In this document: piece by piece, positions 42,832-56,859 of the stretch
How positions within the stretch are numbered: the stretch's first letter is position 1
Layout of the letters: each line of letters opens with the position of its first letter
NCBI GenBank assembly: GCA_947258755.1
Contig: CAMYJO010000025.1
Span: 1-60,228 of the forward strand
Direction: 5' to 3'
DNA length: 60,228 nucleotides
Source: an uncultured Gammaproteobacteria bacterium
Lineage (GTDB): Bacteria; Pseudomonadota; Gammaproteobacteria; JAADHQ01
Made by a program: the position numbers and the translations under genes
The notes under the pieces: model-generated
Seen by the model: only the letters and a program-made list of their open reading frames with translations
What the model was told of the DNA's origin: nothing
Databases searched by the model: none

Positions 42832-43743
42832 TTAATCATTGACGGCATATAGAACAGGTGTATCCTCCTCATTTTCTTGCTTGTTCTGCGTTGCTGGTTT
42901 TTCTGCAGACGCTGTCGCTGTTTCTGAATTGGAGCCGGAGTCTGTCTCCTGTTCAGATTCAGGGTTCTTGTAGCGTTCATGCAGGAAGCGTACGACCTCT
43001 GCACGGTAATGATTGTATTCAGGGACCTCTGCCAGGGCCAATCGATCCCTGGGACGTTCCAGATCGACTTTGAGTATTTCACCGATGGTGGCCGCGGGGC
43101 CGTTGGTCATCATGACAATGCGATCAGACAATAACACGGCCTCATCAACATCATGGGTAATCATGATAACGGTGTTATTCAGCTCGGTCTGAATCTCCAT
43201 CAGTGAGTCCTGCATATGCGCGCGGGTCAATGCATCCAGAGCGCCGAAGGGCTCATCCATTAACATGACCTTGGGTTCCATGGATAATGCACGGGCAATA
43301 CCGACACGCTGTTTCATGCCGCCCGATAGTTCATCAGGTCGTTTATCCATGGCGTGTGACATATGTACCAGTTCAAGATTATGCTCGATCCATTCTTTCA
43401 TTTCTTCCTTTTTTTTCTTGCCCTTGAAGACCTGCTTGACGGCAAGTTCAACATTTTCGTAGGCCGTCATCCATGGCAGTAAGGAATGATTTTGAAAAAC
43501 AACGGCACGATCCGGTCCGGGTTCGCTGACCTCCTTGCCATTGAGGATAACGCCACCTTCGGTAGCCTGGTGCAGGCCGGCGATAATATTCAGCACGGTC
43601 GACTTACCACAACCGGAGTGCCCGATCAGGGAGATAAACTCGCCCTGGTCGATACTCAGTTTAATCTTGTCCAGCGCCCTGAAGGGGCCGTTAGGTGTCG
43701 GGAAGTCGATAGTGACATGTGAAAGTTCCAGATATGAATCCAT
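42832..43743 (-). CDS. nrtD: Nitrate ABC transporter ATP-binding protein
   Basis: This ATPase energises the nitrate importer. The 303-residue product has Walker A in SLIGHSGCGKSTVLNI, signature DELSGGMKQRVGIARAL, Walker B VMLMDEPFGALDALTRAH and the switch His in VIMITHDVDEAVLLSDRI. The C-terminal tail (about residues 245–303) is Glu/Ser/Thr/Gln-rich and not part of the ATPase; it does not carry the solute-binding domain that defines NrtC. So one ATPase, presumably as homodimer, serves the transporter. It is 17 bp after nrtB in the nitrate-controlled nrtABD operon. Confidence 0.93.
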   Translation of the reverse strand: MDSYLELSHVTIDFPTPNGPFRALDKIKLSIDQGEFISLIGHSGCGKSTVLNIIAGLHQATEGGVILNGKEVSEPGPDRAVVFQNHSLLPWMTAYENVELAVKQVFKGKKKKEEMKEWIEHNLELVHMSHAMDKRPDELSGGMKQRVGIARALSMEPKVMLMDEPFGALDALTRAHMQDSLMEIQTELNNTVIMITHDVDEAVLLSDRIVMMTNGPAATIGEILKVDLERPRDRLALAEVPEYNHYRAEVVRFLHERYKNPESEQETDSGSNSETATASAEKPATQNKQENEEDTPVLYAVND

Positions 43744-43760
43744 GTTAGTTTCTCCTCAAA

Positions 43761-44783
43761 TTAGCGAATCACGGCACTCTTGTCCCAACTGATAGACTTC
43801 TGCAACATCAGCATCAGCCTGTCCAGCAGGAAGCCGACAAGTCCTATGGTAAATACTGCGACCATGATTCTGGCCAGTGAGTTGGAACTGCCATTCTGGA
43901 ATTCATCCCAGACAAATTTTCCCAGTCCCGGGTTCTGAGCGAGCATTTCCGCTGCGATCAATACCATCCAGCCGATACCCAGGGATACACGCAGACCGGC
44001 AAACATCATCGGGATAGAGGATGGTATGACAATCTTGAATACCTTGGTCAGCCAGGTCAGTCTCAGTACCTTGCTGACATTGATCAGGTCCTTGTCTATT
44101 GAATTGACACCCACAGTGGTATTGATAATGGTGGGCCACAGACAACACAAGGTGACTGTAATGGCTGAATTCAGATAAGACTTGTCGAACATCGGGTCAT
44201 CACTGACATAAACGGCGCTGACAATCATCATGACGATAGGCAGCCATGCTAATGGAGATACAGGTTTGAATATCTGGATCAACGGATTCAAGGCGGTGTA
44301 TATCAATGGACTCAGGCCACACAAGATACCGACCGGGATAGCAATCAGGGATGCGATCAAAAATCCGGTCATGACGGTGTAAATGCTGGTCCATATCTGA
44401 TCGATATAGGTTGGCTTGCCTGTATAACTTCTGATTTTAACGGTTGCATCCGGGTTTGCGGCCAGTTTTTTGGCATTGCGTTTTTCCTGGCGTTCATAGA
44501 AGGCAGCTTCTTTCTGGCGCTCCTCCTTATGTTCATCCAGAAGATTGACCGCTTGTTCCCAGACCTGGCTTGGCCCCGGCACAGCGCCAAGTGATGTCTT
44601 GATCTGGCTGGCGCCCGCCGACCAGAGTAACAGGAAAATTCCGAGAGCCACCAAGGGGGTGACAATCGCTTTCATTAATTTGTTTATTTCTTCAGCCTTA
44701 TTGGGCCCGGTGAATATACGTAAAAAGGGCTCAATCAATATGTTATGCAGGCCAGAAAAATTTTTCAAAATTTGTGTCGTCAT
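43761..44783 (-). CDS. nrtB: Nitrate ABC transporter permease
   Basis: The 340-residue inner-membrane protein is a BPD-type permease of the NrtB/CmpB/SsuC class. It has an N-terminal helix (about residues 40–60), a charged loop of about 70 residues (rich in Lys and Glu), and five or six further helices. The ATPase-contact loop is in DLINVSKVLRLTWLTKVFKI and the following IPSSIPMMFAGLRVSLGIGW. It is placed between nrtA and nrtD; a strong hairpin separates it from nrtA. Confidence 0.93.
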   Translation of the reverse strand: MTTQILKNFSGLHNILIEPFLRIFTGPNKAEEINKLMKAIVTPLVALGIFLLLWSAGASQIKTSLGAVPGPSQVWEQAVNLLDEHKEERQKEAAFYERQEKRNAKKLAANPDATVKIRSYTGKPTYIDQIWTSIYTVMTGFLIASLIAIPVGILCGLSPLIYTALNPLIQIFKPVSPLAWLPIVMMIVSAVYVSDDPMFDKSYLNSAITVTLCCLWPTIINTTVGVNSIDKDLINVSKVLRLTWLTKVFKIVIPSSIPMMFAGLRVSLGIGWMVLIAAEMLAQNPGLGKFVWDEFQNGSSNSLARIMVAVFTIGLVGFLLDRLMLMLQKSISWDKSAVIR

Positions 44784-44821
44784 AACTAAATACCAATGGG
44801 TTAATTATCTAATTTATTGTT

Positions 44822-44845
44822 ACCTCCCCGTATAAACGGGGAGGT
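44822..44845 (-). other. Intercistronic hairpin between nrtA and nrtB
   Basis: ACCTCCCCG (44822–44830) and CGGGGAGGT (44837–44845) form a perfect 9-bp GC-rich stem with a 6-nt loop and no T-run. Such hairpins after a solute-binding-protein gene often protect the upstream message from 3' exonucleases, giving more NrtA than NrtB; here this is inference. Confidence 0.7.
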
Positions 44846-44856
44846 GTATTATCGTG

Positions 44857-46257
44857 TTAAATTTTCTCTTTGCCTTTCAGTCCAATATTGAACTTCTTCA
44901 GATAGTCGTTGGGTTTTTTACCATCATAAGTGATGTTATCGATGAAGTGCGTTTGCGGGTCACGGAAACCGTCTTCCTTGGCGAAGTCAGGGAATTCAGA
45001 AGCCTTCAGTTTACCTTCCGCAATCAACTCTTTCGCAGCCATGGCATAGATGTCTGGACGGTAAACCTTCTTGGCGATATCCATGTACCAGCTATCCGGT
45101 TTTTCATCAGAAATCTGGCCCCAACGACGCATTTGTGTCAGATACCAGATCGCATCACTGTAGTATGGGTAGGTTGCGAAATAGCGGAAGAACACATTGA
45201 AGTCGGGTACTTCGCGCTTGTCACCTTTTTCATATTCAAATGTGCCGGTCATGCTGTTGGCGATAACGTCATAGTCCGCACCCACATACTGAGATTTGGA
45301 CAGGATCTTGACCGCTTCAGGACGGTTGGCATTATTCTTTTCATCCAGCCATTTGGCCGCACGAATCATCGCCTTGACCACACGGATATGGGTATTCGGG
45401 TATTTGTCTGCCCATTTCTTACTGACACCGAATACCTTTTCCGGGTTGTTCTTCCAGATTTCATAATCTGTGATGACCGGGACGCCGATGCCTTTAAATA
45501 CCGCTTGCTGGTTCCAGGGCTCACCGACACAGTAGCCATAGATAGTACCCGCTTCCATGGTCGATGGCATTTGCGGTGGAGGTGTAACAGACAGCAGCAC
45601 GTCGGCTTTTATCTGTCCTTTTATGTCGCCTTTATGCGGTGCGTAAAAACCGGGGTTGATGCCGCCTGCAGCCAGCCAGTAGCGCAGCTCGTAGTTATGT
45701 GTCGATACCGGGAATACCATGCCCATTTTGAACGGTTTACCATCGGCCTTGAATTGCTCAACGACGGGTTTTAGATAGTCGGCTTTGATCGGGTGTACCG
45801 GTTTACCATTTTCATGTGGCACATGTTTTTTCATTTCTTTCCAGATCTTGTTAGAGACGGTGATGCCGTTACCATTAAGGTCCATGCTGAAGGCGGTAAT
45901 GATGTGGTCCTGAGTACCAAAACCGATTGTTGCTCCCAGCGGTTGCCCGGCAAGCATGTGTGCGCCATCCAGTTCACCATCGATAACGCGATCCAGGAGT
46001 ACTTTCCAGTTGGCCTGGGCCTCGAGCTTGACATACAGACCTTCATCTTCGAAATAGCCTTTCTCATAGGCGATCGCCAGCGGTGCCATGTCTGTTAGCT
46101 TAATGAAGCCAAATTTCAGGTCTTCCTTTTCGGGTTCACCCACGGCGGCATGGGCACTACCGGCCAGGAGGCCTAGCCCCAGGGCTGCGGTGATGGCGCT
46201 TTTTGCCAGGTTCTTGCTCAGCTTGTAGGGCTTCGTGCCCTGTGATTTAAACAACAT
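44857..46257 (-). CDS. nrtA: Periplasmic nitrate-binding protein
   Basis: NrtA binds nitrate (or nitrite) outside the inner membrane and delivers it to NrtB. The 466-residue precursor has an N-terminal signal peptide ending at GSAHA (about residue 38). The mature part shows the NrtA/CmpA/TauA-type fold: [59 protein letters not shown] and [20 protein letters not shown]. CmpA (bicarbonate) is closely related, but the nitrate-type leader RNA, the neighbouring nasT and the NtrC/sigma-54 control point to nitrate. First gene of nrtABD. Confidence 0.94.
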
Positions 46258-46294
46258 TTTTAATCCCCTCGTCTTTGGAGTCTATCGTTCAGGT

Positions 46295-46378
46295 AAAAAA
46301 ACGCCCAGCCACACACCCCCATAACAGGGTTGTATGATTGGACGTCGTTATCCTTATAGCGAGACCGCCGTTGGCCTC
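46295..46378 (-). promoter_or_regulatory. ANTAR-type antitermination leader of nrtABD
   Basis: Read on the minus strand, hairpin 1 is GAGGCC-AACGGC-GGTCTC (46361–46378) and hairpin 2 is GGAT-AACGAC-GTCC (46340–46353). Both have six-base loops with A at position 1 and G at position 4, the rule for RNA targets of ANTAR proteins such as NasR/NasT/EutV. Seven nucleotides separate them. The right arm of hairpin 2 is also the start of a long terminator stem (46302–46345, beginning ACGTCCA and ending TGGGCGT) followed by seven T. The two folds exclude each other. NasT binding should hold hairpin 2 and let transcription continue into nrtA. Confidence 0.9.
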
Positions 46379-46421
46379 TGCTGTGACTAACTGTTAGTAG
46401 TCAATTACTGATTGCTTATAT

Positions 46422-46437
46422 TGCAGTTATTGTGCCA
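46422..46437 (-). promoter_or_regulatory. Sigma-54 promoter of nrtABD
   Basis: The minus strand reads TGGCACAATAACTGCA. Compared with the RpoN consensus TGGCACGRNNNTTGCW, 14 of 16 positions agree, including the invariant GG and GC at the right spacing. Transcription would start near 46411, about 30 nt before ANTAR hairpin 1. Confidence 0.85.
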
Positions 46438-46523
46438 GATGATTGATAAAACTGTATGGCATTGTATTCGTTGCTAATAATGATAAGTGGCAGGAAAAAT
46501 TGGCAATTACAAAGTGAATTATT

Positions 46524-46569: not shown

Positions 46570-47154
46570 TCAGGCGAGCAGGTCGAACGCGGCGATGATA
46601 CCCTCAGAAATTTCGCTGATCCGTTTGTTCCTGTCCATGGCCATTTTTCGTAGCGCCTGGTAGGCCTCGTCTTCCGAATATTGCTTGTGTTGCATAAGCA
46701 GGCCTTTGGCCTTATCGATCAGCTTGCGCTCCTCCAGTTGTGCGCGGGTGTTGAGCAGGTCCTGCTTAAGCTTGTGGATTTCAGCATAACGGGTCATGGC
46801 GACCTGTAGTATGGACTGTATACGGTGGGCCTCGAGTGAGCCGACGATGTAGGTAGCAACGCCATTCTTGATGGCCTTCTCGATGATCAGGTCTTCATTG
46901 GATCCGGTGAACAGTATGACCGGGATTGAGAACCCCTGGTTGATGCTCTTGATTTGTTGCAACAGGGTTTCATCCAGTTGCTCGACCTCGATAATAATCG
47001 CATCTGGAAGACTGGTGCAGATCCTGGCATGGATATCCTGTTCGCTCGTCATGGTCTCAATTTTGTCGATCCCCAGATCGGATAAGGTCAGTTTGAGTTC
47101 ATCCGCCGGGTCGATTTTCTGTAAGACGAGCAGTATATGTTTAATTTCAATCAT
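46570..47154 (-). CDS. nasT: NasT-like ANTAR antitermination regulator
   Basis: NasT-type proteins combine a receiver-like domain with a C-terminal ANTAR RNA-binding domain and stop premature termination in nitrate-assimilation leaders. The 194-residue product has a receiver fold (about residues 1–125, PVILFTGSNEDLIIEKAIKN with GVATYIVGSLEAHRIQSIL) and an ANTAR domain at about 135–194 (LEERKLIDKAKGLLMQHKQY, then SEDEAYQALRKMAMDRNKRI). The phospho-acceptor Asp at the end of strand 3 is Glu56 (IIIEVEQ) and the usual acidic pair after strand 1 is absent, as expected for control by a NasS-like sensor rather than phosphorylation. No nasS is in the window. ATG 47154 is chosen as start; an upstream in-frame extension would run past the sigma-54 promoter. 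Confidence 0.92.
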   Translation of the reverse strand: MIEIKHILLVLQKIDPADELKLTLSDLGIDKIETMTSEQDIHARICTSLPDAIIIEVEQLDETLLQQIKSINQGFSIPVILFTGSNEDLIIEKAIKNGVATYIVGSLEAHRIQSILQVAMTRYAEIHKLKQDLLNTRAQLEERKLIDKAKGLLMQHKQYSEDEAYQALRKMAMDRNKRISEISEGIIAAFDLLA

Positions 47155-47192
47155 CAGATAGCAAGCTATGGTTTTGTATACCCTAAGAGTAG

Positions 47193-47208
47193 AGCAACTT
47201 TTATGCCA
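47193..47208 (-). promoter_or_regulatory. Sigma-54 promoter of nasT
   Basis: The minus strand reads TGGCATAAAAGTTGCT, 14 of 16 matches to the RpoN consensus with GG and GC intact. The start of transcription would be near 47182, giving a leader of about 28 nt before nasT. Confidence 0.8.
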
Positions 47209-47311
47209 GCATGTTGGAACCGGCAAATAGCTAAGTCACAGCAAAAAATAACTGTAAAATCGAGGTGATCGTTGTGACCTGTATAAGATCAGTCCATTCG
47301 CCGGATATGTT

Positions 47312-48825: not shown

Positions 48826-48841
48826 TGGCATGATATCTGCA
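48826..48841 (+). promoter_or_regulatory. Sigma-54 promoter of the flavocytochrome operon
   Basis: TGGCATGATATCTGCA matches the RpoN consensus in 14 of 16 positions with GG and GC at correct spacing. Transcription would start near 48852, directly before the first ANTAR hairpin. Confidence 0.85.
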
Positions 48842-48853
48842 ATGAATAACCCG

Positions 48854-48967
48854 ATGACCAATGGAGGTCATTGGAGTTTCTAAATAATGGGATACGTGCA
48901 TCCCATGCATAGGCAATGGCGCCCCTGCTGAGTGAACTGATTCGCTCCTGCATCGGGCGCCTTTTTT
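48854..48967 (+). promoter_or_regulatory. ANTAR-type antitermination leader of the flavocytochrome operon
   Basis: Hairpin 1 is ATGACC-AATGGA-GGTCAT (48854–48871) and hairpin 2 is ATGGGAT-ACGTGC-ATCCCAT (48887–48906); both six-base loops have A at position 1 and G at position 4. An intrinsic terminator follows: GGCGCCC (48918–48924), GGGCGCC (48955–48961) and TTTTTT, ending 12 nt before the start codon. Inside its loop lies a third hexaloop hairpin, GAGTGA-ACTGAT-TCGCTC (48930–48947), again with A1 and G4. CCCAT of hairpin 2 can also pair with ATGGG just after the T-run, so hairpin 2 may compete with an extended terminator. This predicts control by NasT, as for nrtA. Confidence 0.9.
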
Positions 48968-48979
48968 ATGGGTTTTTAA

Positions 48980-50962
48980 ATGACTGCTGAACAATTAAAG
49001 CAGGAACAGACATTTTTACGCCAGTCCTTCGATATTATCGTTGTCGGTATGGGGCCTGTCGGCCTGCATTTCATCCAGAAAATGGTTGCACTGAATCCGG
49101 AGTTGAGTATTGCCGTGTTTGGTGATGAGCCCTGGGCGCCTTATAACCGGGTCAAGCTGTCATCACTGATATCCGGGCAAATCAAGGAAGACTCCCTGTA
49201 CGAGGCCAGCCCTATCGCCGAACATGATTCGGTAACCCCGTTTTATAACGACCGTATTGTCACTATCGATCGATACGCTCATGAAGTCACAGATAGCCAG
49301 GGCAGAAATTTTGGCTATAGCAAGCTGGTGCTTGCGACAGGTTCTCGCGCCCATATACCGGTCATTGATGGTGTTGATCTGAGGAACGTATTTCGGTTCA
49401 GGGATTTACATGATGCGATGTCACTAATGGGGCGGAGTGTGATGACACGTCGCACTGTGGTCATTGGCGGTGGCTTGCTGGGACTCGAGGCCGCCAGATC
49501 CATGCAACGCTTCAAGACCGAAGTGCATGTTGTTGAGCATGACTTATGGCTGATGTTTAAACAGCTGGACGAGGCGGCGGGCAGCTATCTGCAGAAACAT
49601 ATTGAAGGCCTCGGTATCATTGTGCACACCGGTCAGCATGTGACGAAAATTTCAGGAGAACACCAGGTAGAAGGCGTACATTTGTCCAACAAAGAGGTCA
49701 TCGCAGCAGATACGGTGATATTGGCGACAGGGATACTTCCCAATGTGCAATTGGCGCTGGATTCGGGACTGCACATCGGCAGGGGTATTCGGGTCAATGA
49801 CGCATTGCAGACCAATGATAACGATATTTATGCGATTGGTGAATGCGCCGAACATGAGGGCAAGGTCTATGGCCTGGTCGGCCCGGGATATGAGCAGGCT
49901 GCAGTCCTGGCGCATTATATTGAGGGTAAGAAAAGCCAGTATAAAGGGTCTATTTCGGCGGCTAAGTTAAAAGTAGTGGGTATGCCCGTATTGAGTGCAG
50001 GAGATGTCGTTCAACTGCAGGGGCATGTCGATCAGTATGTGTATGAGGACAAGGAAAAAAGCATCTACCGCAAGTTGATGCTCAGAAACGGTCGTCTTTG
50101 TGGGATGGTTGGGATGGGTGAATGGCCAGGTATCCAGCGCTTTCAGGAGGCGATCAACAAGCGGCGTCGAATCTGGCCATGGCAGACGCGAAAATTCGTT
50201 GACGATGGCGTGATCTGGAACCACGTGCAGTCGGAGAATGTCATCGACTGGCCGGCATCGGCAACGGTATGTAATTGCACAGGCGTCACCCGTGGTCAAC
50301 TGGATCATGCACAGAGCAAGGGGGCAGTGACGTTACCGCAGATATGCGCCATGACCGGGGCTTCATCGGTATGTGGTTCATGCAAAAGCCTGATCGGTGA
50401 CTATCTGGGCAGCAGCGCTCCCGCTGAACCGGTCAAGGGTTTTCGAACTTTATTGACGACTTCGATGATTGCCACGCTGGCCGCATTACTGTTCCTTGTT
50501 GTCCCGGCAGTTAACTATGCGACATCCGTACAGACCGATTGGTCTCTCGATAGACTGTGGCGTGACGGCTTCCTGAAACAGGTGAGTGGTTTTTCTATTC
50601 TGGCTGTCGCGCTTCTTATTTCATTGATTTCAATGCGTAAACGCGTAAAAAAACTGATCAAATTATGGGACTTTTCATCCTGGCGAATAGTCCATGTGGT
50701 GCTTGGGCTGCTGGTGATCGCTTTGATGTTTGCACACACGGGTTTCCGACTCGGGAATAACCTGAATTTCATACTCATGCTGACATTCAGTGCATTGCTA
50801 CTGGTCGGCGCTGTTGCCGGTTTAGCGATTGGCTATGAACATAATTTACCGAAAAGACTGGCAAAAAATATACGCTCGTTCGCCATGTGGTCACATATTA
50901 TTCTGCTGTGGCCAATACCCGCGTTGCTGGGCTTTCATATTTTGAAGACCTATTACTTTTAA
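48980..50962 (+). CDS. NasB-like NAD(P)H flavoprotein with [2Fe-2S] and membrane cytochrome b domain
   Basis: The 660-residue protein joins three parts. Residues 1–410 are a two-dinucleotide flavoprotein of the NirB/NasB type: DIIVVGMGPVGLHFI (FAD), VLATGSRAHIPVI, RTVVIGGGLLGLEAARSM (NAD(P)H) and NDIYAIGECAEHEGKVYGL. Residues 431–475 are a BFD-like [2Fe-2S] domain with CNCTGVTRGQ and SVCGSCKSLIG. Residues about 490–660 have five membrane helices with two His-x13-His pairs (VHVVLGLL to FAHTGF; WSHIILL to GFHILK), as needed for two b haems. It should pass electrons from cytoplasmic NAD(P)H into the membrane. First gene of the operon behind the ANTAR leader; its stop overlaps the next ATG by one base. 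I know no named protein with this exact architecture. Confidence 0.8.
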   Translation: MTAEQLKQEQTFLRQSFDIIVVGMGPVGLHFIQKMVALNPELSIAVFGDEPWAPYNRVKLSSLISGQIKEDSLYEASPIAEHDSVTPFYNDRIVTIDRYAHEVTDSQGRNFGYSKLVLATGSRAHIPVIDGVDLRNVFRFRDLHDAMSLMGRSVMTRRTVVIGGGLLGLEAARSMQRFKTEVHVVEHDLWLMFKQLDEAAGSYLQKHIEGLGIIVHTGQHVTKISGEHQVEGVHLSNKEVIAADTVILATGILPNVQLALDSGLHIGRGIRVNDALQTNDNDIYAIGECAEHEGKVYGLVGPGYEQAAVLAHYIEGKKSQYKGSISAAKLKVVGMPVLSAGDVVQLQGHVDQYVYEDKEKSIYRKLMLRNGRLCGMVGMGEWPGIQRFQEAINKRRRIWPWQTRKFVDDGVIWNHVQSENVIDWPASATVCNCTGVTRGQLDHAQSKGAVTLPQICAMTGASSVCGSCKSLIGDYLGSSAPAEPVKGFRTLLTTSMIATLAALLFLVVPAVNYATSVQTDWSLDRLWRDGFLKQVSGFSILAVALLISLISMRKRVKKLIKLWDFSSWRIVHVVLGLLVIALMFAHTGFRLGNNLNFILMLTFSALLLVGAVAGLAIGYEHNLPKRLAKNIRSFAMWSHIILLWPIPALLGFHILKTYYF

Positions 50963-52353
50963 TGAAGCATTCGAAACTATGGCTGTTATGGCTGACCATG
51001 ATCATAATATCAATCACAACTCTAAGCTATCTGATTCTCGAAGGTGAGGACAAGTCCGTGTTTACGCCAGGCGCCATGACGGGCGGTCATCATCAGATAG
51101 GTGTTGCTTGCGATGCCTGCCATACCAGTTCATTTACAGATGAGGATGAAATGCAGAAGGCCTGTGAGTCCTGTCATGGTGATCAGCGACAAAAACCGTT
51201 TGATTCACATCCACAAAGCAAGTTTACCGACCCCCGTAATGCTGATCGCCTGGAAAAGATCAACGCGCTGTATTGTGTGACCTGTCATGTCGAGCACAAA
51301 CCCGAAATTACGCAAAAAACCGGGCTGACACAGCCGCTTGATTTCTGTGTGCATTGCCATCAGGACATCGCGGAAGATAGGCCCAGTCATGCCGGCATGG
51401 GATTTGAGACCTGTGCCAGTGCCGGTTGTCATAACTACCACAACAACCGGGCGCTGTATACCGACTTTCTGGTCAAGCATATGCATGAGCCTGAGACATT
51501 GGACAAGCAGGTAGTACCCGCCAGAGAGTTCGCCAGTGTGCTGGAAGAAATAGCCACATACCCCCACGATCGTTATCCGGTATCAACATTGACAGCAAAA
51601 GACATGGATGCGCCTGCCGGGATGTCGGTCGAGAAAGAGCTGATGCATGACTGGGAGTCGACCGCGCATGCCCGTTCGGGGGTGAATTGTTCCGCCTGTC
51701 ATTTACAGGGGCAGGAGGGTGAAGACAAAGTCTGGGTCGACCATCCAGACCATCGTTCATGTCAGACCTGTCATGATGTTGAAGTAACCCAGTTCCAGCA
51801 AGGAAAACATGGCATGCGCCTGAAGTCAGGTTTATCCGCGATGACACCGGCGCAAGCAAGGTTACCGATGAAGGAAGATGCGCACGCTAAACAACTGAAC
51901 TGCAATACCTGTCATCAGGGGCATGCGTATAAACTCGAAACCGCCGCTGTCGAGGCTTGCCTCGGCTGTCATGATGACCAGCACTCTCTCGCTTATAAAG
52001 ATTCCCCGCACTATACCCTGTGGGAAAAAGAGATGCAGGGTGACCTACCTGCAGGTAGTGGGGTCTCCTGTGCAAGCTGTCATATGCCGAGGACATCGAT
52101 TGATGTCAGCGACTGGTTGCGCAGGGTGGTCGTGCAGCATAACCAGAACGCCACCCTGGTGCCGAACGAGAAAATGATTCGCCCTGTGTGTATGAGCTGT
52201 CATGGTTTGCCCTTTGCGATTGATGCAATGGCGGATACAGATCTGGTGCAACGTAATTTTAAGGGTAAGCCAAGCGTGCATATCAACAGCGTCGATATGG
52301 CCGAACAGGATAACAACAGACATCTGCAAGAAACGGGAGGTGACGCATTCTAG
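50962..52353 (+). CDS. Membrane-anchored multihaem cytochrome c with eleven haem-binding motifs
   Basis: Starting at ATG 50962 (one-base overlap with the flavoprotein stop), the 463-residue product has an N-terminal membrane anchor (about residues 4–24) and a periplasmic part with ten CxxCH motifs: CDACH, CESCH, CVTCH, CVHCH, CSACH, CQTCH, CNTCH, CLGCH, CASCH and CMSCH. An eleventh possible site with wider spacing is CASAGCH, between the fourth and fifth. No CxxCK as in NrfA is seen. The text looks like the cytochrome c3/NapC-type superfamily at the level of motifs only. Position suggests it takes electrons from the haem b domain of the flavoprotein, as relay or as terminal reductase; the substrate is unknown. 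Confidence 0.8.
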   Translation: MKHSKLWLLWLTMIIISITTLSYLILEGEDKSVFTPGAMTGGHHQIGVACDACHTSSFTDEDEMQKACESCHGDQRQKPFDSHPQSKFTDPRNADRLEKINALYCVTCHVEHKPEITQKTGLTQPLDFCVHCHQDIAEDRPSHAGMGFETCASAGCHNYHNNRALYTDFLVKHMHEPETLDKQVVPAREFASVLEEIATYPHDRYPVSTLTAKDMDAPAGMSVEKELMHDWESTAHARSGVNCSACHLQGQEGEDKVWVDHPDHRSCQTCHDVEVTQFQQGKHGMRLKSGLSAMTPAQARLPMKEDAHAKQLNCNTCHQGHAYKLETAAVEACLGCHDDQHSLAYKDSPHYTLWEKEMQGDLPAGSGVSCASCHMPRTSIDVSDWLRRVVVQHNQNATLVPNEKMIRPVCMSCHGLPFAIDAMADTDLVQRNFKGKPSVHINSVDMAEQDNNRHLQETGGDAF

Positions 52354-52418
52354 GAAAGATCAGACGTTAATACCGTAACAGAAATACATTACACATTTTA
52401 CTAAACAGGAGATTTAAC

Positions 52419-53009
52419 ATGAAGAAGACTAAATTAGCAATCGGTATGGGTGTGGCAATCGCTACGACATCGGTAGCAACCACATTAAGTGCAGCGGGAG
52501 ATATGGTTCCTGTCAAGGCAATGGCGGATGCCCTGCATCTGGTCATGGATTCAGACCGTACAATCTATACACGTAAAATTGTCAACCGCCTGGTCAAGAA
52601 AGAAAAGGTGATCAAGGCTAGTGAGCATTTTGAAGACGACAAGGCACTGGTATTGCCGGCACAGATGTTCCGTTTTGGCGCAGAGCTGGTCAAGAAGAGA
52701 ATGGAGAAAAAACCGGATGTTGACTTCAGCTATTCATTGCAGTCACTGTGGCCAATCAATAAACAGAATGCACCAAAGACCAAGGCAGAGAAAGAGGGTC
52801 TGAAGTTCGTCGCTGAAAACAAGGGTAAAAACTATTACACCGAGGAAACACTGGGCGGTAAAAAATATTTTACAGCCGTCTATGCGGATACCGGGGTAGC
52901 ACCGGTTTGTGTGTCCTGTCATAACAAACACAAGGATACGCCCAAGAAAGACTTCAAGATCGGTGATGTCATGGGCGGTGTCGTCATTCGAATCCCGATT
53001 GGGGGCTAA
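52419..53009 (+). CDS. DUF3365 (Tll0287-like) periplasmic c-type haem protein
   Basis: The 196-residue precursor has a signal peptide (about residues 1–26, ending TLSAAG) and a DUF3365-like domain. The single haem site CVSCHNKHKDTPKKDFKIGD near residue 165 is followed by VMGGVVIRIPI at the end, both typical of this family. Members bind one haem c in a PAS-like or Tll0287 fold; functions proposed are electron transfer or redox sensing. GAG-rich spacing and AGGAGA precede the ATG. It is 65 bp after the multihaem cytochrome and 14 bp before the small cytochrome c. Confidence 0.82.
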   Translation: MKKTKLAIGMGVAIATTSVATTLSAAGDMVPVKAMADALHLVMDSDRTIYTRKIVNRLVKKEKVIKASEHFEDDKALVLPAQMFRFGAELVKKRMEKKPDVDFSYSLQSLWPINKQNAPKTKAEKEGLKFVAENKGKNYYTEETLGGKKYFTAVYADTGVAPVCVSCHNKHKDTPKKDFKIGDVMGGVVIRIPIGG

Positions 53010-53023
53010 AAGAGTAAGCTGCC

Positions 53024-53413
53024 ATGAAACCGACTGGACTATTTTTGTTGCCGTTGTTATTTAGCAGTACGATGTTGTTCGCAGATGACAATGCAGCGTT
53101 TATCCGTTTTGATGATGCCGCATTACAATCTGGACGCACATTATGGCTGCAGAACTGCAAGGGTTGTCATGCTTATGGTACAGCAGGGGCTCCAGTGCCG
53201 ATGGAGATGGAGCAATGGAAGGCGAGAGTCATAAAGGACAGGGAGGTCCTGTATGATCATGCCATTAATGGCTTCTTCGGTCCTGACGATACGATGATGC
53301 CAGAGAGGGGTGGCAACCCCGAGCTCAGCGATGCGCAGGTCAAGCTGGCAGTGGACTACATGGTGGAATTGGCAGGCTATTATATCAGGCAAGTATTAAA
53401 TCAATCCAAATGA
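53024..53413 (+). CDS. Small periplasmic cytochrome c
   Basis: The 129-residue precursor has a signal peptide (about residues 1–20, ending MLFA) and one haem site QNCKGCHAYGTAGAP near residue 45, with MMPERGGNPELSDAQVKLAV supplying a likely axial Met. The arrangement is like cytochrome c5/c555. It is probably the soluble electron carrier of this operon, either bringing electrons to or taking them from the multihaem protein. It starts 14 bp after the DUF3365 gene. Confidence 0.85.
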   Translation: MKPTGLFLLPLLFSSTMLFADDNAAFIRFDDAALQSGRTLWLQNCKGCHAYGTAGAPVPMEMEQWKARVIKDREVLYDHAINGFFGPDDTMMPERGGNPELSDAQVKLAVDYMVELAGYYIRQVLNQSK

Positions 53414-53445
53414 AAGACTATTAGATCAATAGAGAGGAAAATATT

Positions 53446-53859
53446 ATGACACCGGAAGAAATAAAACTGGTTAAAGATTCCTGGGCAAAAGTATCGCCGA
53501 TAGCAGAAACGGCGGCAGAGTTGTTTTATGGTAAGTTGTTCGAACTGGACCCGTCGGTCAGGTCGATGTTCAAGGGTGATATGGTCGATCAGGGCAGGAA
53601 ATTGATGACCATGCTGAATACCGCCGTCAATTCACTGGACAACGTCGAGGCGATAGTACCGGCTGTCCAGGCCCTGGGTAAACGTCATGTGGGATATGGC
53701 GTCAAGGATGAGCATTATGACACGGTAGGTGAGGCCCTGATCTGGACCCTGGGTGCAGGCCTCAAGGATGACTTTACAGAAGATACCAAGAATGCCTGGG
53801 TGGCTGTGTATACGCTGGTCGCTACAACGATGAAGGATGCGGCAGCAGAAGCAGCCTGA
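53446..53859 (+). CDS. Single-domain bacterial globin
   Basis: The 137-residue protein is a Vitreoscilla haemoglobin-type globin without reductase domain: PIAETAAELFYGKLFELDPS, VRSMFKGDMVDQGRKLMTML and ALGKRHVGYGVKDEHYDTVG with the proximal His. Such globins in nitrate-assimilation operons (for example Bradyrhizobium Bjgb) protect against nitric oxide made during nitrate and nitrite reduction. GAGAGGAAAA precedes the ATG. As last gene of the operon before a terminator it supports a nitrogen-oxide role for the whole cluster. Confidence 0.92.
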   Translation: MTPEEIKLVKDSWAKVSPIAETAAELFYGKLFELDPSVRSMFKGDMVDQGRKLMTMLNTAVNSLDNVEAIVPAVQALGKRHVGYGVKDEHYDTVGEALIWTLGAGLKDDFTEDTKNAWVAVYTLVATTMKDAAAEAA

Positions 53860-55848: not shown

Positions 55849-55917
55849 GCATAACGGTTAGCTGTGGGCAGCATGCCGCAACGCGGCGCAGCGTCCCATG
55901 CGAGCGCATTGTTAGCT
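55849..55917 (-). repeat. attC site downstream of the SOR cassette gene
   Basis: On the minus strand it starts AGCTAACAATGCGCTCGCAT and ends GCCCACAGCTAACCGTTATGC, with a CGCCGCGTTGCGGCA centre. The stop codon TAA of the SOR-like gene lies inside the first core site. The arms CATGGG and GCCCAC pair imperfectly as in other attC sites. Confidence 0.8.
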
Positions 55918-56859
55918 TTTTATCCCGTTCAATATCTCACGATTGGTTTGCTCTCTAAACATTGAATCCGATATGCGCACGTTTGGCATGTGCAGGCAAT
56001 TGTCCAATACCTTTTTTCCATGCACATGCAAAAGTTCGGGCTTTACGTTTACATGCGGCATATTGCCCTGTGCGTATCGCAGGCTTTCCCACTCGACCAT
56101 TACAAGATACTCAGCAGGTATGGCATAGCCTTCCCACACCTCGGCGGTGCGCTTTAGCTTGCTGCCTGAGCTGTCTTTTAGATCCTCTAACATCGACTCG
56201 ACTGTGGCGTGACCACTTCCAAGTGTGGACAATCCTATGCGTTTGAGTATTTGAAAGCCGACCATGCCGGGCGACTCCATCAGTAGATTCATGGTTTCAA
56301 TCTCACCCTCTTCAAACTCCTGCTCCTTACCTGGTCGAATTCGGTGAGTGGCCATCACGGTGACCGTTTCACCACTATCTATAGCGTAGCTACTGGTGTC
56401 ACCAGCAGTACTTTTCTTTAGCCACTGATTACTCGAGACCAGCTTCGGTAAGCTACTGTGCACAATTCTAAATACAGGTTCTTCCGGCCCTTCCAGTAAA
56501 ACTTCTCCACACCGGGCACATGTATCGACGACTACATCTTCGAATGTTTCATGAAAAAGCTCATGTGCCTCTACCGAGTCCCAGTACGTCATTTGATCAA
56601 TCCAGATATGAGACAAGCCCGTTCCCATGTCCGTGCTTGCACCCCAGCGCATTCCCATAGGGCATGCGCCAAGCTGCTTCATGAGATCGAAACCCTTGAA
56701 ACCGGGTGTTAATGCCGTTGTCAGGCACATCTTAGAGCTGGCCTGCTTCATCATAGACATTAGATTAGGATCATTCTTGACCAGAACGCGGTTTATGGCG
56801 ACATATAGAGGTGAGTCAGGTTCCGCATCATATAATTTTTTGACAATATCACTTTTCAC
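55912..56859 (-). CDS. sor: Sulfur oxygenase/reductase homologue (integron cassette)
   Basis: Sulfur oxygenase reductase disproportionates and oxidises elemental sulfur to sulfite, thiosulfate and sulfide in the cytoplasm without external cofactors. The 315-residue product aligns over its length with remembered archaeal SOR (about 308 residues): LYVAINRVLVKNDPNLMSMM, KMCLTTALTPGFKGFDLM, VTVMATHRIRPGKEQEFEEG and YLVMVEWESLRYAQGNMP. The active-site Cys is Cys45, the iron ligands correspond to His99, His103 (AHELFHE) and Glu127 (GPEEPVF), and the other two cysteines to Cys114 and Cys117 (CARC). The start is GTG 56859 with GGAGGG 8 nt upstream. It lies in the cassette array with an attC overlapping its stop and a candidate promoter of its own. 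Confidence 0.88.
   Translation of the reverse strand: MKSDIVKKLYDAEPDSPLYVAINRVLVKNDPNLMSMMKQASSKMCLTTALTPGFKGFDLMKQLGACPMGMRWGASTDMGTGLSHIWIDQMTYWDSVEAHELFHETFEDVVVDTCARCGEVLLEGPEEPVFRIVHSSLPKLVSSNQWLKKSTAGDTSSYAIDSGETVTVMATHRIRPGKEQEFEEGEIETMNLLMESPGMVGFQILKRIGLSTLGSGHATVESMLEDLKDSSGSKLKRTAEVWEGYAIPAEYLVMVEWESLRYAQGNMPHVNVKPELLHVHGKKVLDNCLHMPNVRISDSMFREQTNREILNGIKS

Follow-up and report, generated by a model that had tools for sequence, protein, structure and literature searches.

The operon and its surroundings

The window analysed here is a stretch of 60,228 nucleotides from an uncultured gammaproteobacterium (GenBank assembly GCA_947258755.1, contig CAMYJO010000025.1), and the subject of this report is an operon of five genes within it, at 48980-53859. 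Its first three products, a flavoprotein fused to a cytochrome b-type membrane domain (FCB), a multihaem cytochrome c (MHC) and a haem-Cache protein (TLL), form a conserved core that is predicted to carry electrons from NAD(P)H across the membrane, and they are followed by a small cytochrome c (CYC) and a globin (GLB). Translation and Pfam searches confirm the five genes given by an earlier reading made from the letters alone (hereafter the sequence-only reading). A sigma-54-like promoter and, after it, an ANTAR leader precede them (Table 1). The core proteins match Pyr_redox_2, Rubredoxin_C and Fer2_BFD (FCB), Cytochrom_c3_2 and Cytochrome_C7 (MHC) and Tll0287-like, PF11845, formerly DUF3365 (TLL). 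The ATG of MHC overlaps the stop codon of FCB (TAATG), an arrangement that makes translational coupling of the two likely.

Table 1. Genes and control elements of the operon and its divergent neighbours (positions in the window)
Feature	Position	Strand	Description
FCB	48980..50962	+	660 aa; FAD-NAD(P)H flavoprotein + Rubredoxin_C + BFD [2Fe-2S], fused to a five-helix membrane domain
MHC	50962..52353	+	463 aa; membrane-anchored 11-haem cytochrome c
TLL	52419..53009	+	196 aa; exported stand-alone Tll0287/DUF3365 (sCache_heme) c-type haem protein
CYC	53024..53413	+	129 aa; exported mono-haem cytochrome c; Pfam Cytochrome_CBB3
GLB	53446..53859	+	137 aa; cytoplasmic single-domain globin; Pfam Globin
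Sigma-54-type promoter-like site TGGCATGATATCTGCAA (GG-N10-GC)	48834..48850	+	start about 48834
ANTAR-type leader	48845..48972	+	hairpin loops AATGGA and ACGTGC; G+C-rich terminator, then T6
nrtA leader	46258..46450	-	TGGCACAATAACTGCAA site; hexaloop hairpins ACTAAC and AACGGC; terminator with T7
NasT-like response-regulator/ANTAR protein	46570..47226	-	Pfam ANTAR, E 9e-20
nrtABD nitrate/nitrite ABC transporter	42832..46257	-	divergent neighbour of the FCB operon

Conservation and distribution of the core

Relatives of MHC were sought in 84,980 species genomes, which gave 435 confirmed candidate stretches, of which the best 80 were taken; together with four more they make up a set of 84 loci that includes a few near-duplicates. 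The FCB-MHC-TLL core is kept in 81 to 84 of these loci (FCB in 83, TLL in 81), and the three without TLL are two contig ends and one locus with an unassigned frame of 178 residues. Accessory and neighbouring genes are found in smaller numbers, GLB in 65 loci and CYC in 39; 33 loci have nrtA and 31 a nasT-like gene. The hosts are Gamma-, Beta- and Alphaproteobacteria, along with metagenome-assembled genomes labelled as Poribacteria, Verrucomicrobia, Bryobacterales and Myxococcales; a plasmid collection yielded no match to MHC. Mean pairwise identity is highest for TLL (61.6%), followed by MHC (49.6%) and FCB (43.0%). The pairwise divergences of the core proteins correlate with one another (r 0.66 for MHC and TLL, 0.59 for FCB and MHC), whereas those of the globin do not (0.04-0.23), and we therefore regard FCB-MHC-TLL as the unit and the globin as a frequent but exchangeable accessory. 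In two operons GLB is replaced by a protein that we take, from its sequence features, to be of the truncated-haemoglobin type.

Co-occurrence was assessed at the level of whole genomes in 281 Gammaproteobacteria, the class to which the window belongs. MHC and TLL of this sub-family are each present in 22 of them, with 21 genomes having both, one each having MHC or TLL alone and 258 having neither (Fisher p 2e-29). The nitrate-uptake gene nrtA is found in 20 of the 22 genomes with MHC as compared to 64 of the 259 others (p 7.5e-10), while NasA (14 of 22, by the query used) and NirB (18 of 22) are moderately enriched; one genome (G140) also has a NasC/NarB-like enzyme that scored under the threshold used. 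These tests ignore shared ancestry, but the positives nonetheless span 18 genera. The association is strong for nrtA and moderate for NasA and NirB, with one genome, G158, as an exception that is weighed below.

Several of these genomes have settings of their own. In one (G121, L140:566-15983) the core travels with a NarG-type nitrate reductase, with genes for FCB, MHC, TLL, a porin-like protein, nirB, nirD, narG and a narH-like gene all on one strand. The lone MHC, in G239 (L172:7693-9559), is a divergent relative with eleven CXXCH motifs that lies right after a rhodanese-like gene, with no FCB and no TLL, and this may be a second context for the cytochrome family, one related to sulfur. The lone TLL, in G248 (L171:8529-15663), lies some kb upstream of genes for a decahaem cytochrome and a large porin-like protein, which resemble an MtrAB-type conduit. 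G158 itself is a genome of 1.7 Mb with two copies of the core (L144 and L145) and the gene for a dissimilatory-type sulfite reductase, dsrA.

A probable place in the nitrate regulon

The control region offers good support for assigning the operon to the same nitrate-assimilation regulon as the divergent nrtABD genes, one that would combine sigma-54 with NasT-type antitermination. Of 65 homologous operons, 27 have a sigma-54-type site upstream; the figure for coding controls is 4 of 65, and shuffled sequences gave 0-4. The FCB leader folds (-55.5 kcal/mol, z -5.3) into two hexaloop hairpins and a terminator, and by relaxed criteria the same combination recurs in 27 of the 65 homologous leaders; none of the 65 coding controls has it, and shuffled sequences gave 0-1. 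The second hexaloop of the FCB leader (ACGTGC) has the A at position 1 and lacks the G at position 4. The nrtA leader has the same architecture, with its own sigma-54-like site, ANTAR-type hairpins and terminator, and nirB, which lies on another contig (C35) of the same genome, is likewise preceded by a sigma-54-like site. Rfam gave nothing above its gathering thresholds, its only match being a weak one to narK (22.7 bits) inside the nrtA leader. Antitermination of nas genes by ANTAR proteins is established in other bacteria (PMC3795266). With an ANTAR gene nearby, a leader of two hexaloop hairpins and a terminator, the FCB operon is predicted to be NasT/ANTAR-controlled, and the NasT-like protein encoded in the window is the likely regulator of both leaders. 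Nitrogen control of the operon, as first suggested from its sequence, is borne out by the recurrence of the sites and leaders and by the linkage to nrtA.

FCB, a NasB-type flavoprotein joined to a predicted di-haem membrane domain

Residues 19-478 of FCB align with positions 1-467 of the 794 in the NirB model TIGR02374 (E 4e-120), at 402.5 bits against a cut-off of 578, and FCB is no NirB, as the sirohaem half is absent from the chain and a membrane domain stands in its place. The flavoprotein half is rather of the NasB/Flp type, having a Pyr_redox_2 domain and the four invariant cysteines of a BFD [2Fe-2S] cluster (C431, C433, C465 and C468), although proteins of that type are soluble and cytoplasmic and the five-helix membrane domain is fused to FCB in 72 homologues. 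Glycines G163, G165 and G168 of the nucleotide-binding site are invariant, as is E170, and 41 of 49 sequences end the second strand in E or D, an acidic residue that by analogy with BphA4 we take to be of the NADH type; together these features favour NADH as the electron donor. In an AlphaFold2 model (pLDDT 89.2) the flavin domain is confident, and it dominates the Foldseek matches, which are to BphA4-type ferredoxin reductases.

The membrane domain found no sequence match among solved structures, and its resemblance to Ferric_reduct (PF01794; E 0.0052, 17.3 bits) is below the cut-off of 28. It contains two His-x13-His pairs, H572/H586 and H639/H653, which are invariant in the 72 homologues and lie in predicted helices 3 and 5 (565-587 and 625-659). 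A 14-residue spacing of histidines in two helices is classic for a pair of stacked b haems. FCB accordingly has the two His pairs in two helices that define a di-haem transmembrane cytochrome b, the haems themselves being predicted, and electron transfer across the membrane is a reasonable reading of this arrangement.

MHC, a cytochrome with an HAO-like half that lacks the catalytic haem

MHC has ten CXXCH motifs and one CX4CH, and the count is the same in 78 of 79 homologues. Its residues 220-435 align with octahaem proteins of other genomes that resemble hydroxylamine oxidoreductase (HAO) (hhalign probability 96-99%, E 1e-10 to 1e-17) in such a way that haems 6-11 fall on HAO-like haems 2, 3, 5, 6, 7 and 8, and its profile also matches TvNiR (E 5e-9). 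Haem 4 of HAO is the catalytic P460 position. In MHC this position is a gap or is taken by residues without Cys, it is matched in none of the 71 aligned sequences, and the segment between haems 7 and 8 has no Cys in any of the 71. The C-terminal half of MHC is thus, as far as these alignments go, a divergent HAO-like module without catalytic haem 4, and MHC as a whole is not an octahaem protein of the HAO/ONR type, which would have eight haems with haem 4 catalytic. Structure comparison by VIA gave a modest score against HAO (Z 6.8 over 189 residues, rmsd 3.9), while global TM-scores from Foldseek were weak (0.27), and the assignment of the fold therefore rests on the profile alignment and VIA. 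As regards NrfA, MHC has no CXXCK motif and scores 17.9 bits, below the cut-off, with Cytochrom_C552; its N-terminal five haems gave no convincing alignment with NapC, NrfB or HAO profiles.

Outside the motifs, 11-12 histidines are conserved for the eleven haems, and each C-terminal haem has an invariant candidate His partner that matches a His in HAO-like proteins. Because the haem-4 position is missing and the supply of conserved histidines is sufficient in this sense, we read MHC as probably a bis-His electron wire.

TLL, a haem-Cache protein without the axial cysteine

TLL is a member of the Tll0287/DUF3365 family, with 70.7 bits against a gathering threshold of 24.1 for PF11845 and a single CXXCH, and is predicted to be exported or to be a lipoprotein. 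Beyond the haem pair there is no Cys after residue 40 in 68 sequences, and the axial Cys of the family is therefore missing, while canonical stand-alone Tll0287 paralogues in related genomes (L121, L124 and L125) have kept it. No sequence match among solved structures was obtained with TLL alone or with its profile. In the single study of the family, a Tll0287-type protein without the axial Cys binds nitric oxide (NO) and releases it slowly, which a stand-alone Cys-ligated member does not do (PMC12889525). By this analogy TLL is predicted to bind NO, and of the two haem proteins it is likelier than MHC to be the reactive site, because the axial Cys is absent and TLL is the most conserved component.

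Between nirB and nasA on contig C35 (L132:12394-14155), a search with PF11845 also revealed a gene whose product combines a Tll0287 domain with transmembrane helices and a HAMP-like segment; a cyclase-like gene comes after it. The Tll0287-domain protein is a candidate membrane NO sensor in the nitrate-assimilation region.

Nitrate and nitrite reductases elsewhere in the genome

The sequence-only reading had noted that no NasA, NirBD, NapA or NrfA is present. This is true of the window, and for NapA it is true of the whole genome, in which HAO/ONR-type proteins were not found either; NrfA was not searched for genome-wide. The genome does, however, have on contig C35 genes for a complete NirB and for a NasA, and in other genomes the FCB operon lies beside nirB-nirD-nasA (L044), Nap (G047) or NarG clusters. 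A substitution for missing NasA and NirBD can accordingly be rejected as the role of the operon, since both are encoded in the same genome and usually co-occur with MHC in others. A role for MHC as electron donor to NapA was also rejected, since only 4 of 23 genomes with MHC gave a NapA match, and in G047, where a Nap cluster adjoins the operon, that cluster includes NapC, NapG and NapH of its own.

Farther along the window a minus-strand gene (55912-56859) encodes a protein of 315 residues which, to the eye, we assume to be like sulfur oxygenase reductase; it would suit a sulfur-metabolising host.

A proposed function and its alternatives

That electrons reach the periplasm from NAD(P)H by way of haem b, as the sequence-only reading had it, is well supported as a prediction by the domains of FCB, its invariant His pairs and the haems of MHC. 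On this wiring we build the proposal that FCB-MHC-TLL is an NADH-driven line for the export of electrons across the membrane, in defence against reactive nitrogen during the use of nitrate, which we put forward tentatively, as quite possible if still short of probable. On the cytoplasmic side FCB would oxidise NAD(P)H, probably NADH, and electrons would pass from FAD to the BFD-type [2Fe-2S] cluster, then through two stacked b haems and the eleven c haems of MHC to TLL. As a periplasmic protein or lipoprotein with an apparently open haem, TLL would trap or reduce NO (or nitrite) outside, while the globin would remove NO in the cytoplasm and might then be reduced again by the FCB flavin, in the way proposed for Flp and Bjgb. 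The outward direction of flow and the identity of the substrate, like the contact between MHC and TLL, are things that we infer. The bolder form of this proposal, in which the core is a phylum-crossing, NADH-powered and quinone-pool-independent defence against extracytoplasmic NO and nitrite with the haem-Cache enzyme as its reductase, strikes us as rather unlikely.

A number of observations weigh against the export line as we describe it. The MHC-TLL contact on which it turns is only inferred. Stand-alone Tll0287 proteins have been assigned redox and not NO-related roles, and a C59A variant still released NO quickly (PMC12889525), and loss of the Cys is thus not in itself enough to give an NO binder. 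A globin is absent from about 14 loci whose flanks are long enough to show one. G158, with its two copies of the core, has no match to nrtA, NirB, NasA or NapA, and the nitrate link is therefore not absolute. Finally, OcwA has open-site haems despite enough histidines in its sequence and slowly reduces nitrite and hydroxylamine (PMC6703420), so that counting histidines is no proof that MHC is non-catalytic.

OcwA, a relative of MHC with unconventional open-site haems, also gives some substance to the view of the sequence-only reading that MHC may be the periplasmic reductase itself, taking electrons from FCB to reduce nitrite, hydroxylamine or NO. The C-terminal half of MHC does appear to belong to the HAO/ONR/NrfA superfamily, and where twelve non-motif histidines are conserved for eleven haems one could be an active-site residue. 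We nonetheless consider this view unlikely, and catalysis by MHC less likely, as no haem stands at the catalytic position of HAO in the 71 aligned sequences, CXXCK is lacking, every C-terminal haem has its invariant His candidate with a counterpart in HAO-like proteins, and the genome encodes NasA and NirB elsewhere. A nitrate-regulated but general reductive outlet, that is, a ferric or periplasmic redox-balance reductase for whose catalysis nitrogen oxides are irrelevant, would accord with the sub-threshold likeness of the membrane domain to Ferric_reduct (E 0.005), with the action of the HAO-related OcwA as an extracellular terminal reductase (PMC6703420) and with the core of G158 in a genome without the nitrate genes searched; given the strong regulatory and genomic tie to nitrate uptake, the globin in most operons and the lack of an outer-membrane porin-cytochrome conduit within the operon, we think it quite improbable. 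The flow might also run inward, from periplasmic cytochromes through MHC and FCB to NasA (or NirB), which would spare NADH and suit sulfur oxidisers: FCB is of the NasB/Flp type, whose members are donors to NasA, in L044 the operon and nirB-nirD-nasA are joined, and many hosts are of sulfur-oxidiser lineages (Thiogranum, Sedimenticola, Chromatiaceae). The heterotrophs Alcanivorax and Marinobacter carry the operon too, however, the NAD(P)H-binding site of FCB is fully conserved, NasA is detected in only part of the MHC genomes, and a haem-Cache protein and a globin would be superfluous for such a role, all of which makes inward flow very improbable in our judgement.

Were the proposed export line correct, nitrate assimilation would commonly be paired with an NADH-powered line for electron export, a group of stand-alone DUF3365 proteins would have a role, and the HAO scaffold, its catalytic haem lost, would have found a second use as a wire. 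The core occurs in about 8% of the sampled gammaproteobacterial genomes and at loci in several other phyla, mostly with a nitrate-uptake system, and it offers testable genes for the handling of NO and nitrite in assimilating cells.

Comparison with known systems

The modules of this operon all have known relatives. The open-access papers searched give no description of the fusion in FCB, of the three-gene combination or of the operon as a whole, and this agrees with the earlier view of it as a possibly undescribed system. FCB shares its flavoprotein half and BFD [2Fe-2S] domain with NirB and NasB but differs from NirB in having no sirohaem/[4Fe-4S] reductase half and in its predicted C-terminal haem-b membrane domain. 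Ferric reductases and flavocytochromes b of the NOX type also pass electrons from an NAD(P)H flavoprotein to two b haems held by paired histidines in two helices. FCB departs from these in having an N-terminal flavin domain of NirB/BphA4 type, accompanied by a [2Fe-2S] cluster, and a multihaem cytochrome as its proposed acceptor. MHC is like the superfamily of octahaem HAO, ONR (TvNiR) and NrfA, with the relative OcwA, in that its haems 6-11 align with those of HAO-like proteins, and unlike that family in its five extra N-terminal haems, its membrane anchor and its short C-terminus, from which the long helices are absent. TLL is exported, stand-alone and endowed with a single CXXCH in the manner of Tll0287/DUF3365 proteins (PMC12889525), yet it lacks the axial Cys of canonical stand-alone members and belongs to a separate sub-family found with MHC. 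A close parallel for the whole is the narK-bjgb-flp-nasC operon of Bradyrhizobium japonicum, in which, under NasT control and with a link to an ABC nitrate transporter, a single-domain haemoglobin and an FAD-NAD(P)H flavoprotein encoded side by side jointly protect against NO, Flp being proposed to serve both NasC and Bjgb in the cytoplasm (PMC4724949). In the operon of the window, by contrast, the flavoprotein carries a membrane domain with two predicted b haems, genes for an 11-haem cytochrome and for a haem-Cache protein come next, and no nitrate reductase is encoded.

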